From the NCBI GenBank assembly GCA_030836185.1, contig JAURQH010000050.1, forward strand, positions 1 through 64,000: a DNA stretch of 64,000 bases, read 5' to 3'. The stretch comes from Planctomycetota bacterium. Lineage in GTDB: Bacteria > Planctomycetota > Planctomycetia > Planctomycetales > Planctomycetaceae. Below the pieces are notes generated by a model that saw only the letters and a list, made by a program, of their open reading frames with translations, made no database searches and had not been told where the DNA came from. Both the position numbers and the translations under genes were made by a program. Position 1 is the first letter of the stretch; every line of letters starts with the position of its first letter. Of the stretch, positions 12,192-18,094 are shown piece by piece.

Positions 12192-13295
12192 CTACTCGAT
12201 CACGTCTTCTGAGACGGCAGCGGGAGGTTCGCTCACTTCGTTCGGGTTGGCTTGTCCCAACCATTCCGGCTTGAGCAGCATCAACAGACCGATGCCGAAG
12301 ATCAGAGCACCGCTGACGAGTTTCAACCAACGTCCTTCTTTCTCTTCAAGACGTCGTTTACCGAGCGTGACGACGGCAATGATGACCATCACGCCGTCGT
12401 CGAACATATAGGCCAAGTTATACAGCCCGATGTAGGCGTAGTTTTTCCAGCTTGGATACTCTTGCAATGCCAGGACGTTTGTGTAAAGAGCCGGCAATCC
12501 TGCCGTACATAACAGTTCGAGGATATTCACCATAATGGCAAGGACGGTTGCTCCCAGCAGCGCGGCCCAAATGTTCTCTGCGGTGATGATCTTTCGCATG
12601 CGGGCGTTAATCCCCGACTTCGCAGAATCGGGAATGGACAGAGAAACACCCTTCTTAAAAGCAAAGAAATCTTTGATGTGAATCCCGCCGACGATCAATG
12701 CCATCACTCCAAGTGCGATTTGAATCCCCCGCATGAAACCTAGGAACAAATATACTTCCAGCCAAAATGCCATGAAAATGAAGTAGGCAATTCCGCTGAT
12801 CAGTACAAAAACGCCAGCGATGGCGAACATCTTCTTGCGATCTTTAAGGTTCACCAACAACGAGAGCAAGAACAGTAATACCCACATTGCACAGGGGTTA
12901 AATCCATCAACCAGTCCGATGGCAATTGTGAAGCCGACCATGCCCATATCGGTCGCGTTCACATTACCGAACAGAGGCAGCGCGACAGTTTCCTCATCAA
13001 GCATCGCTTCAGCGTCTTCCTCGCTGATGTCGATGGGAAACGCAACATCCTCCCCACCACTCATTCCAGGACTGGGTGGCAGGTCGTTACCGGGAGGAAG
13101 TGGTGGACCATCATCAGCACCGGGAGGTAATGGGGGGCCGTCATCGACACCGGGTGGGGGCGGCAAAGCGTCGTCATTTCCGCTGGGAGGCGGAGGAAGA
13201 TCATCACCAGAATCCGGCGGCACGGGAAGCGACTCGTCAGATTCCCCTCGGACGAGAAGCCCCGTGTATAAACCGCCGAATTCCAGTAATGCCAA
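12192..13295 (-). CDS. CcdA/DsbD-like thiol-electron transfer membrane protein
   Basis: A 367-residue frame. Residues 15-80 are a Pro/Gly/Asp-rich low-complexity linker with repeats of the type PPLPPGADDG. From about residue 120 there are six or so membrane helices. They include two cysteine motifs typical of the CcdA/DsbD family: FNPCAMWVL in the first helix and ELLCTAGLP in the fourth. These proteins pass reducing equivalents across the inner membrane. The only in-frame start is a TTG at 13295 with no Shine-Dalgarno sequence, lying just after a perfect stem-loop. The frame is open upstream to the stop region of the thioredoxin-fold gene. I suspect it is translated as a fusion with that gene by -1 frameshifting (see 13299-13350). 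Confidence 0.8.
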   Translation of the reverse strand: MALLEFGGLYTGLLVRGESDESLPVPPDSGDDLPPPPSGNDDALPPPPGVDDGPPLPPGADDGPPLPPGNDLPPSPGMSGGEDVAFPIDISEEDAEAMLDEETVALPLFGNVNATDMGMVGFTIAIGLVDGFNPCAMWVLLFLLSLLVNLKDRKKMFAIAGVFVLISGIAYFIFMAFWLEVYLFLGFMRGIQIALGVMALIVGGIHIKDFFAFKKGVSLSIPDSAKSGINARMRKIITAENIWAALLGATVLAIMVNILELLCTAGLPALYTNVLALQEYPSWKNYAYIGLYNLAYMFDDGVMVIIAVVTLGKRRLEEKEGRWLKLVSGALIFGIGLLMLLKPEWLGQANPNEVSEPPAAVSEDVIE

Positions 13296-13298
13296 CGA

Positions 13299-13350
13299 GA
13301 TTCGGGACGAAAAAGCCTGCCCCGAATCAGTCTCACTTACTTTTTTTTTT
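13299..13350 (-). promoter_or_regulatory. Candidate -1 ribosomal frameshift signal joining Trx and CcdA-like genes
   Basis: On the minus strand ten A residues (13350-13341) are followed by GTAA. In the frame of the upstream gene this reads GAA AAA AAA AAG TAA. The dnaX-type slippery heptamer A AAA AAG is therefore in the correct zero-frame phase, with the stop codon next. A perfect stem GATTCGGG/CCCGAATC (13328-13321 with 13306-13299, loop 14 nt) begins 11 nt after the heptamer. A -1 shift, or one extra A by transcriptional slippage, reads V-S-E-T-D-S-G-Q and continues with no stop into the CcdA-like frame. A homopolymer sequencing error would look the same. Confidence 0.6.
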
Positions 13351-14014
13351 CGACCACACCACCCTCAGACCAGTAATCGAGCGTCTTTAGAATTTTGACA
13401 CCCGTGGTGCGTTCGGTGCTGTATCCAATCGAAACTCCATTACAATAATGAAGTAACGGCAAACTGGCCGCCCGCTGACGATACCGTCGTGCGACATCTC
13501 TCATCTCTTGCGAGGCCGTTTTATCAGTCGTCACTTCACGATAGACAATATTGAGAGCCGGGTAGCGTCCGCCGTATTTTGTCAGAAATGCCTTGGCCGC
13601 TTTACAGTGAGGACAGCCATTGCGGACATATGCAGTCAGAGTCAGCATTTCGTCCAACTTGGCATTCATTTTCTTGGCAGAATCGATATTCTCTGCGAAA
13701 TATTTGAGTCCGTATAATGCCGGTAACTTGGCCTCTTTGATTTTGAAGTAATCCTGCATTTCCTGCAGGCGTTGTTGTCCTTTTTCGTTCTCGTAAACAT
13801 CCCGAAGATAGAGTTTCAAGCCGGGATGGTCTTCGCCGTACTTTTCGAATGCCGCCTTTAATTCATTCGAGTTTTCAACGGTGGAATCGTAGAACATTTC
13901 CAAGAGAAACAATTGGACTTTCTCGTCCTCTGCATGAACTCGGTTTTCAGTAAGCACACAGCAAAATGCACACATGCCAAGAATAAGTTGTGGAAAATGT
14001 CGGAACATGATCAT
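13337..14014 (-). CDS. Secreted protein with thioredoxin-fold domain (CPHC)
   Basis: A 225-residue exported protein. It has a signal peptide over residues 1-28, a first alpha/beta segment (about 30-110) that looks like a thioredoxin-type fold without CxxC, and a second segment (about 110-205) with the redox motif NGCPHCKAAKAFL. CPHC is the DsbA/glutaredoxin-like active site. It is probably a periplasmic thiol reductase or oxidase that exchanges electrons with the CcdA/DsbD-like protein encoded just downstream. The C-terminus ends in VVEKKK, encoded by a ten-A run directly before TAA, and this run is the probable frameshift site. The start is the ATG at 14014, with a second ATG two codons later. 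The ribosome binding site is weak. Confidence 0.8.
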   Translation of the reverse strand: MIMFRHFPQLILGMCAFCCVLTENRVHAEDEKVQLFLLEMFYDSTVENSNELKAAFEKYGEDHPGLKLYLRDVYENEKGQQRLQEMQDYFKIKEAKLPALYGLKYFAENIDSAKKMNAKLDEMLTLTAYVRNGCPHCKAAKAFLTKYGGRYPALNIVYREVTTDKTASQEMRDVARRYRQRAASLPLLHYCNGVSIGYSTERTTGVKILKTLDYWSEGGVVEKKK

Positions 14015-17515: not shown

Positions 17516-17920
17516 CTAGAAGAGCGACTTCTGCTGCTTTTCAACCTGCTTGTTTTTTTTGCCAGAACGCTGTTTCGTCTTGGTTTTCTTGGCAGCGGGA
17601 GCTTTTGCTTTCTTCTTCTTAGCTGGCTTGTTGACTGTTTTTTTTGCCGGTTTTTTCACCGATTTCTTCTTCGTGCCACTCGATTTCTTTTTGACGGACT
17701 TTTTGGGCTTGGGACTCTTGGCAGGCTTCTTCTTCGGGGGTGTTTTCTTTTTTGCAGGCGACTTGGAAGTCTTCTTTTTGGCCGATTTTTTCTTCTTCTT
17801 TTTTCCAGCCTTCTTCTTCGGTTTTCCCGAAGATTTCTCGTTTTGACCATCGCTGAAGATTTGATCCCAACCGGCCACGAATTGTTTCGAAGCTCCTGTG
17901 TGGACGGTATAGCCTGTCAT
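17516..17920 (-). CDS. Lysine-rich histone-H1-like protein
   Basis: A protein of about 134 residues. A short, ordinary N-terminal part (MTGYTVHTGASKQFVAGW, to about residue 28) is followed by about 100 residues made almost only of Lys, Pro, Ala, Ser and Thr. It contains many PAKKK, KKKS and PKKKP units, with a short tail VEKQQKSLF. This is the composition of bacterial histone-H1-like C-terminal tails (for example HctB or the AlgP type), which bind DNA or RNA non-specifically. The conserved-looking head suggests a specific domain or target. The start is taken at ATG 17920; an upstream in-frame TTG at 17935 is possible. Repetition in the coding DNA may make copy number variable. Confidence 0.7.
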   Translation of the reverse strand: MTGYTVHTGASKQFVAGWDQIFSDGQNEKSSGKPKKKAGKKKKKKSAKKKTSKSPAKKKTPPKKKPAKSPKPKKSVKKKSSGTKKKSVKKPAKKTVNKPAKKKKAKAPAAKKTKTKQRSGKKNKQVEKQQKSLF

Positions 17921-18094
17921 ATATGCGACTTTCAAATCTTGGTGACGAGTTCCCTCAGTGATGTCCTTTTAATCTAACATATCCAGAAATTCTCGCAAGA
18001 ATCCGGGAGAGCCTTTGCTGTAGATTGGTCCCGGAACGGCTCGCCTTCTATAATAGAACACTGGATTAATGATCTCTGAACTTTGTAGACAGCT

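Follow-up and report, generated by a model that had tools for sequence, protein, structure and literature searches.

A poly-A tract that RNA polymerase probably slips on may give free and membrane-tethered thioredoxin-like proteins from one planctomycete gene

Two adjacent minus-strand reading frames in the 64,000-nt stretch of planctomycete DNA analysed here (hereafter the window) appear to form a single gene, in which RNA-polymerase slippage on ten adenines would yield both a free protein of 225 residues and a membrane-tethered protein of 607 residues; we give this reading a probability of roughly two in three. Under the proposed mechanism, RNA polymerase would slip on the ten template T's and produce mRNAs with extra or missing A's. 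Messages with ten A's (or 10+3n) would encode a secreted thioredoxin-like protein that ends at the TAA, and those with eleven (or another net +1) would encode the fusion (225 + 15 + 367 residues), in which a Pro-rich linker ties the same redox domains to a two-cysteine membrane domain. In the periplasm the short form would be unattached, the longer one would hold the redox domains at the putative electron conduit, and slippage may set the proportion of the two.

Results

The split gene in the window

The elements of the locus are collected in Table 1. The earlier note had described a zero-frame A AAA AAG in GAA AAA AAA AAG TAA directly before the stop, a −1 frame that runs on without a stop for 15 codons and then enters the 367-codon membrane ORF, a perfect 8-bp stem, and a TTG at the head of the membrane ORF that lacks a ribosome binding site. 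Direct reading bears out the first two points. The stem is present as letters, with arms GATTCGGG (13328-13321) and CCCGAATC (13306-13299) starting 11 nt after the AAG. As to the TTG, no Shine-Dalgarno (SD)-like tetramer or longer motif was found in the 13 nt scanned before it, nor before the other downstream-frame starts in the window or in its congener G002. The predicted junction peptide of the fusion is EKKKVSETDSGQAF.

Table 1. Features of the split redox gene (window coordinates)
Feature	Position	Strand	Basis or remark
Zero-frame ORF, 225 aa, ATG start	13337..14014	minus	direct reading and ORF list
A10 tract, candidate slippage site	13341..13350	minus	context GTC GAA AAA AAA AAG TAA
Zero-frame stop TAA, abutting the slip site	13337..13339	minus	direct reading
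15 codons predicted to be translated only after the shift (−1 frame)	13296..13340	minus	direct reading, relatives, substitution pattern
8-bp hairpin (10 bp as folded)	13299..13328	minus	window's genus only; probably not needed
Downstream −1-frame ORF, 367 aa, TTG start	12192..13295	minus	Pro/Asp-rich linker, then multi-helix membrane domain
Membrane domain, two invariant cysteines (FNPCA, ELLCTAG)	12195..12998	minus	alignment A1 (41 sequences), AlphaFold pLDDT 78.3

Such tracts are rare in this 5.16-Mb genome: counting both strands, only two A/T tracts reach at least ten nucleotides, and 29 are exactly nine long. The second of the two, besides the A10 described here, is an A11 within another ORF (G000:C56:8615, locus L205); this longest A tract of the genome lies in frame at codon 55 of 439, and one of the other frames has a stop one codon later. 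Elsewhere in the window, positions 17516-17935 of the minus strand hold a 139-codon ORF made up largely of Lys, Ala and Pro.

The two halves of the predicted fusion

The first ORF is a member of the glutaredoxin/thioredoxin fold: it matches the Pfam Glutaredoxin model PF00462 with 29.3 bits (cut-off 22.9) and carries a CxxC motif. By eye, its N-terminus is a putative signal peptide. The AlphaFold model of the 225-residue protein (pLDDT 90.6) contains two thioredoxin folds, the second of which bears the CPHC motif (Cys134 and Cys137), and both cysteines are invariant among 34 aligned sequences. The best Foldseek row for this model is the protein disulfide oxidoreductase of P. furiosus, at an E-value of 4.3e-6 but a TM-score below 0.3.

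The membrane domain is probably a CcdA/DsbD-like electron conduit. The earlier note had named it as such, and the proposal is plausible. Two cysteines (C36 and C164 of alignment A1) are invariant in 41 sequences and fall in predicted helices 35-51 and 143-165; these may be catalytic. Family models gave no match: the families listed with E≤0.1 matches to the 41 members include no DsbD or CcdA model, and Pfam, NCBIfam and PDB sequence searches of the domain gave no CcdA/DsbD match. Two of the 41 members match SfLAP (best 2e-6) and two match LysE. Alignment with E. coli DsbD by hhalign is insignificant in score (E 0.09, probability 0.6 percent) and places both cysteines opposite what we take to be the DsbD catalytic pair. 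The NMR structure of CcdA is the second Foldseek row for the domain, at a non-significant E of 0.27; in the VIA comparison it stands at row 44 (Z 7.2, rmsd 4.3, 179 aligned), in a list where other transporters reach Z 11. One locus, L048 (2840-3988), holds a stand-alone membrane ORF with a signal-like N-terminus of its own, and no thioredoxin part was found within 2 kb upstream of it.

Fused and split relatives in Planctomycetaceae

The gene is present in 54 of 170 Planctomycetaceae genomes, most of them metagenome bins and each representing one species, and its loci were read from 53 of the 54 (G132 is the exception). Forty carry both parts fused in one frame and ten carry them split; the four not judged are G132 and three genomes in which the gene is cut at contig ends (G075, G179 and G048). 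Fused and split states were called by a script on the CxxC and FNPC motifs, which had no match in loci L011, L014, L054, L086 and L095. G064 is counted as fused and has a frame break further on, within the membrane domain, and G297 has a second gene copy with internal stops; neither was read as recoded.

The split genomes belong to four genera and comprise G000, G001 and G002 (every compared member of the window's genus), G172-G176 (genus g4), G103 and G091. All ten have a run of eight to ten A's at the same place, shortly after the last thioredoxin helix: A10 in G000, G002, G001, G175, G174 and G091, A9 in G103, G172 and G176, and A8 with a nearby A7 in G173. Nine of the ten thus have A9-A10 at the frame junction, and the A8 and A7 of G173 fall below the usual nine for slippage. 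In G001 the two parts lie on two contigs and the −1 frame after the run is still visible; in G174 the locus is cut in the linker. A homopolymer in draft genomes invites the suspicion of an assembly or sequencing error, yet the split recurs at one site in ten genomes from four genera, whose run lengths and tails differ, and on these grounds we reject error, which is hardly conceivable.

In a FastTree phylogeny of 92 distinct loci (copies, loci without a 75-residue thioredoxin stretch, G001 and G174 were dropped), the eight placeable poly-A splits form one clade with support 0.93, beside the fused loci L019 and L022. The fused form is the commonest and surrounds the split clades. Linkers of distinct fused loci hold a run of at least eight A's in only 2 of 80 cases (L019 and L155, both A8), and the run of L019, a sister lineage, is in frame.

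That recoding joins the two ORFs is well supported by these comparisons, because the parts are fused in 40 of the 54 genomes, the stretch after the run seems constrained as coding sequence, and no start of the downstream ORF is conserved except an ATG within the first predicted helix; the earlier note's claim of one fused protein made by recoding is upheld in this respect. Counted by −1-frame codon positions 1, 2 and 3, differences after the run number 12, 7 and 19 between L001 and L011, 11, 6 and 21 between L002 and L011, and 10, 11 and 24 between L016 and L096; two further pairs are uninformative (L001/L002 with 3, 1 and 4; L018/L020 with 6, 5 and 6). The post-run stretch thus appears mostly to evolve like −1-frame coding sequence. 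Short zero-frame tails follow the run, and they vary from genus to genus.

Two ordinary genes, with the membrane protein translated from a start of its own, would also account for two frames. A TTG lies 15 codons past the run, the helix ATG is shared by 8 of 8 poly-A loci scanned (11 codons upstream of the FNPC motif), SD-like tetramers precede some downstream starts in L017, L020, L021 and L050, and L048 has the stand-alone membrane ORF described above. Against this, the TTG of the window is CTG in G002 and no downstream start of L001 or L002 has an SD-like motif, for which reasons the TTG is rejected as a genuine start, and the shared ATG would open translation inside the first predicted helix. 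We regard separate genes as very improbable.

Polymerase slippage, ribosomal frameshifting or a changing DNA tract

In eight of the ten split genomes the membrane frame is reached by a −1 change (equivalent to one added nucleotide), and in two, G173 (L015) and G091 (L021), by +1; the phase of the A-run also differs among them. The earlier note had proposed a −1 ribosomal shift of the E. coli dnaX type, stimulated by the stem, and had looked to orthologues for a conserved run, stem and frame relation. The A-run is indeed kept in all ten; the frame relation is divided eight to two, the zero-frame A_AAA_AAG occurs in six of the ten (A_AAA_AAA in the remaining ones), and the stem was seen in no genus but the window's, so the dnaX-like form of the proposal is not supported. 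The hairpin of the window is marginal, with z −1.94 and 6 of 200 shuffles equally good (z −1.7 and 20 of 300 when a 60-nt stretch is folded), and in seven split genomes of other genera the stem was not seen (z −1.4 to +1.6). It is rejected as an essential element on account of this restriction to one genus, and recoding probably does not need it.

A ribosomal shift on a uniform mRNA, either programmed at A AAA AAG or by ribosomes sliding on the A-run, nevertheless has points in its favour. An in-phase A_AAA_AAG or A_AAA_AAA is kept in all eight genomes that need −1, AAG stands directly before TAA in the window, G002, G001, G175 and G174, the hairpin of the window lies 11 nt downstream, and a −1 heptamer, C_CCT_TTT, occurs in the same linker of three Pirellulaceae. 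Sliding of ribosomes on a run of A's, which needs no heterogeneity of the RNA, has been described for A11 in a cell-free system from E. coli (the available part of PMC4363877). This reading is weakened by the lack of the stem beyond the genus, by the two of ten genomes that need +1 (in G173 the zero-frame A_AAA_AAG lies in the A7), and by the A9 tracts that interrupt further genes in the family, with a +1 relation in a few cases. A search for tRNA-Lys gave two pattern matches, neither confirmed as a tRNA by ARAGORN. We consider a ribosomal shift unlikely, though a contender to be taken seriously.

RNA-polymerase slippage seems more likely than a dnaX-type shift, because the stem, the phase of the run and the frame relation vary while the A-run stays. 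A homopolymer that alone is kept throughout fits what would be expected of a slipping polymerase, which yields all frames; polymerase slippage fits all ten split genomes, eight of which (those with −1) would also fit ribosomal slipping. Other A-tract genes of the window's own genome, described below, count in its favour as well: a dnaX with the Thermus layout, and three A9 tracts at junctions between frames. We infer that the shift occurs in the RNA and not on the ribosome.

A third possibility is that the run changes length in the DNA, toggling the fusion within a population by phase variation. Long homopolymers do mutate by replication slippage, the runs range from A8 to A10 between species, and the sister genome with L019 is fused with an in-frame A8. 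Yet only one of 11 family genomes with at least eight A's at this site is in the fused frame, where one third would be expected at random; the chance of this is about 0.075 if the genomes are independent, which they are not, so that the argument alone is weak. The run at a further gene of the family (gene 3, below) is exactly A9 in 78 of 82 judged genomes, which also speaks against frequent change. Phase variation thus appears quite improbable.

A separate split in Pirellulaceae

The gene occurs in 42 of 241 Pirellulaceae genomes. Thirty of the 44 match rows were read: 25 are fused, three are split with a heptamer, one lies at a contig edge, and one is L170. The three splits (L046, L050 and L051, from three bins of three genera) interrupt the same linker without an A-run and have CCCTTTT in X_XXY_YYZ phase (C_CCT_TTT), followed at 10, 16 or 49 nt by the zero-frame stop. 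CCCTTTT is found in 3 of 80 fused linkers, and in that phase in one. L046, L050 and L051 form a separate clade (support 0.84 in the 92-locus tree), and because they do so with C_CCT_TTT and no A-run, two separate origins of recoding in this linker, each with its own signal, are probable. L170, from the single-contig genome G276, has a frame break inside the second thioredoxin domain, where no slippery site was noticed; it was left out of the split counts.

Other A-tract genes

Three of the genome's 29 A9 tracts separate ORFs in different frames, as recognised by reading their translations. Gene 1 (G000:C39:21729, L186/L267) encodes an ABC-type ATPase followed by an acetyltransferase-like domain. 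Among 30 loci, the best 30 of 48 genomes, 29 could be judged: 22 are split with A8 or A9, two are split without a run, two are fused with A10 and three are fused without a run. Gene 2 (G000:C72:3488, L193/L207), a TIM barrel followed by a cytochrome c, is split at an A9 in all three members of the genus; the other 27 of the best 30 rows comprise 25 fusions across a different linker and two loci (L233, L235) that are not comparable, and since the query matches every genome the distant rows may be paralogues.

Gene 3 (G000:C90:14643, L199/L237) encodes a large protein for which family searches, NCBIfam included, found no known family. Its sample comprised 90 loci of 158 matching genomes (the best 30 and 60 hand-picked), eight of them without the upstream part. 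In 81 of the 82 Planctomycetaceae genomes judged, from some 39 genera by hand count, it is split at A8-A10, and the one fused genome has A10. The 81 include three splits with a +1 relation and L248, whose two parts share one frame, with a stop that overlaps the run.

The dnaX gene of the same genome (G000:C6:16345, L177, 1502-1510; NCBIfam gamma/tau model NF004046, 486 bits, cut-off 400) carries an A9 in frame at codon 410 (of about 577), and each of the two alternative frames meets a stop within five codons. This A9 is known from the window's genome alone.

Discussion

The mechanism that we favour, a fusion dependent on slippage, is of a known kind; the gene is new, and use across a family is unexpected. 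Documented transcriptional slippage in bacteria concerns mainly IS elements, Thermus dnaX, Shigella secretion genes and endosymbionts, to judge from the available parts of PMC1088944 and PMC5009743. In Thermus dnaX it is the short product that arises by slippage, the long one being read in frame (PMC1088944, part available), and its A9 layout is also described in the accessible part of PMC5009743. The redox gene resembles dnaX of Thermus thermophilus in having A9-A10 in the coding strand and two products with a common N-terminus, a layout shared by the window genome's own dnaX, but here it is the long product that would require slippage. Closer in this respect is Shigella flexneri mxiE, where overlapping ORFs are joined by an added nucleotide and the long product needs slippage (PMC1088944, same part); the run there is of U in a regulator gene, whereas the planctomycete gene encodes a redox/membrane protein. 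The likeness to the E. coli dnaX frameshift, A AAA AAG with a downstream hairpin, is found in the window, but hairpin and exact heptamer are not conserved, and in the planctomycete gene the long form would need the shift. As in the thiol conduits DsbD, CcdA and ScsB, thioredoxin-type domains are joined to a membrane domain of several helices that has two invariant cysteines; the planctomycete protein differs from them in having no family-model match and in the free and tethered forms predicted from one gene. Such paired forms of DsbD, CcdA or ScsB did not appear in the available text of the open-access matches listed, nor did slippage in planctomycetes or a report on the redox gene; PMC3711429 took in two planctomycete genomes, according to the part available.

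The main rival on the usefulness of the two forms is that slippage serves no purpose here: a frameshift became fixed, enough full-length protein is still made to rescue the gene, and the short form is a by-product. Such 'pseudo-pseudogenes' are described in the available part of PMC1088944, and the predominance of the fused form around the split clades and the short zero-frame tails, unlike between genera, agree with one. On the other hand, the split has been kept in four genera, the run is retained even though such runs mutate easily, and Pirellulaceae acquired a split of this linker independently, at a different slippery site. A purposeless origin is doubtful, if a substantial minority possibility. 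From the maintenance of the split in four genera and from its second origin we infer that both proteins, which would be made side by side and have a redox role, are useful.

A broader proposal, for which we see odds barely better than even, is that Planctomycetaceae use polymerase slippage on A9-A10 as a standing, conserved device for several unrelated genes (the redox gene, the ABC-ATPase/acetyltransferase, the large protein and dnaX), and that selection for free plus tethered thioredoxin was strong enough for Pirellulaceae to re-invent the split with a ribosomal heptamer. If so, an A9 fixed in an otherwise conserved gene across some 39 genera would place slippage among the ordinary layers of gene expression in the family. 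Genes that look 'broken' in planctomycete annotation would then be explained, and in the redox gene the balance between free and membrane-tethered thioredoxin would be set in a way open to test.
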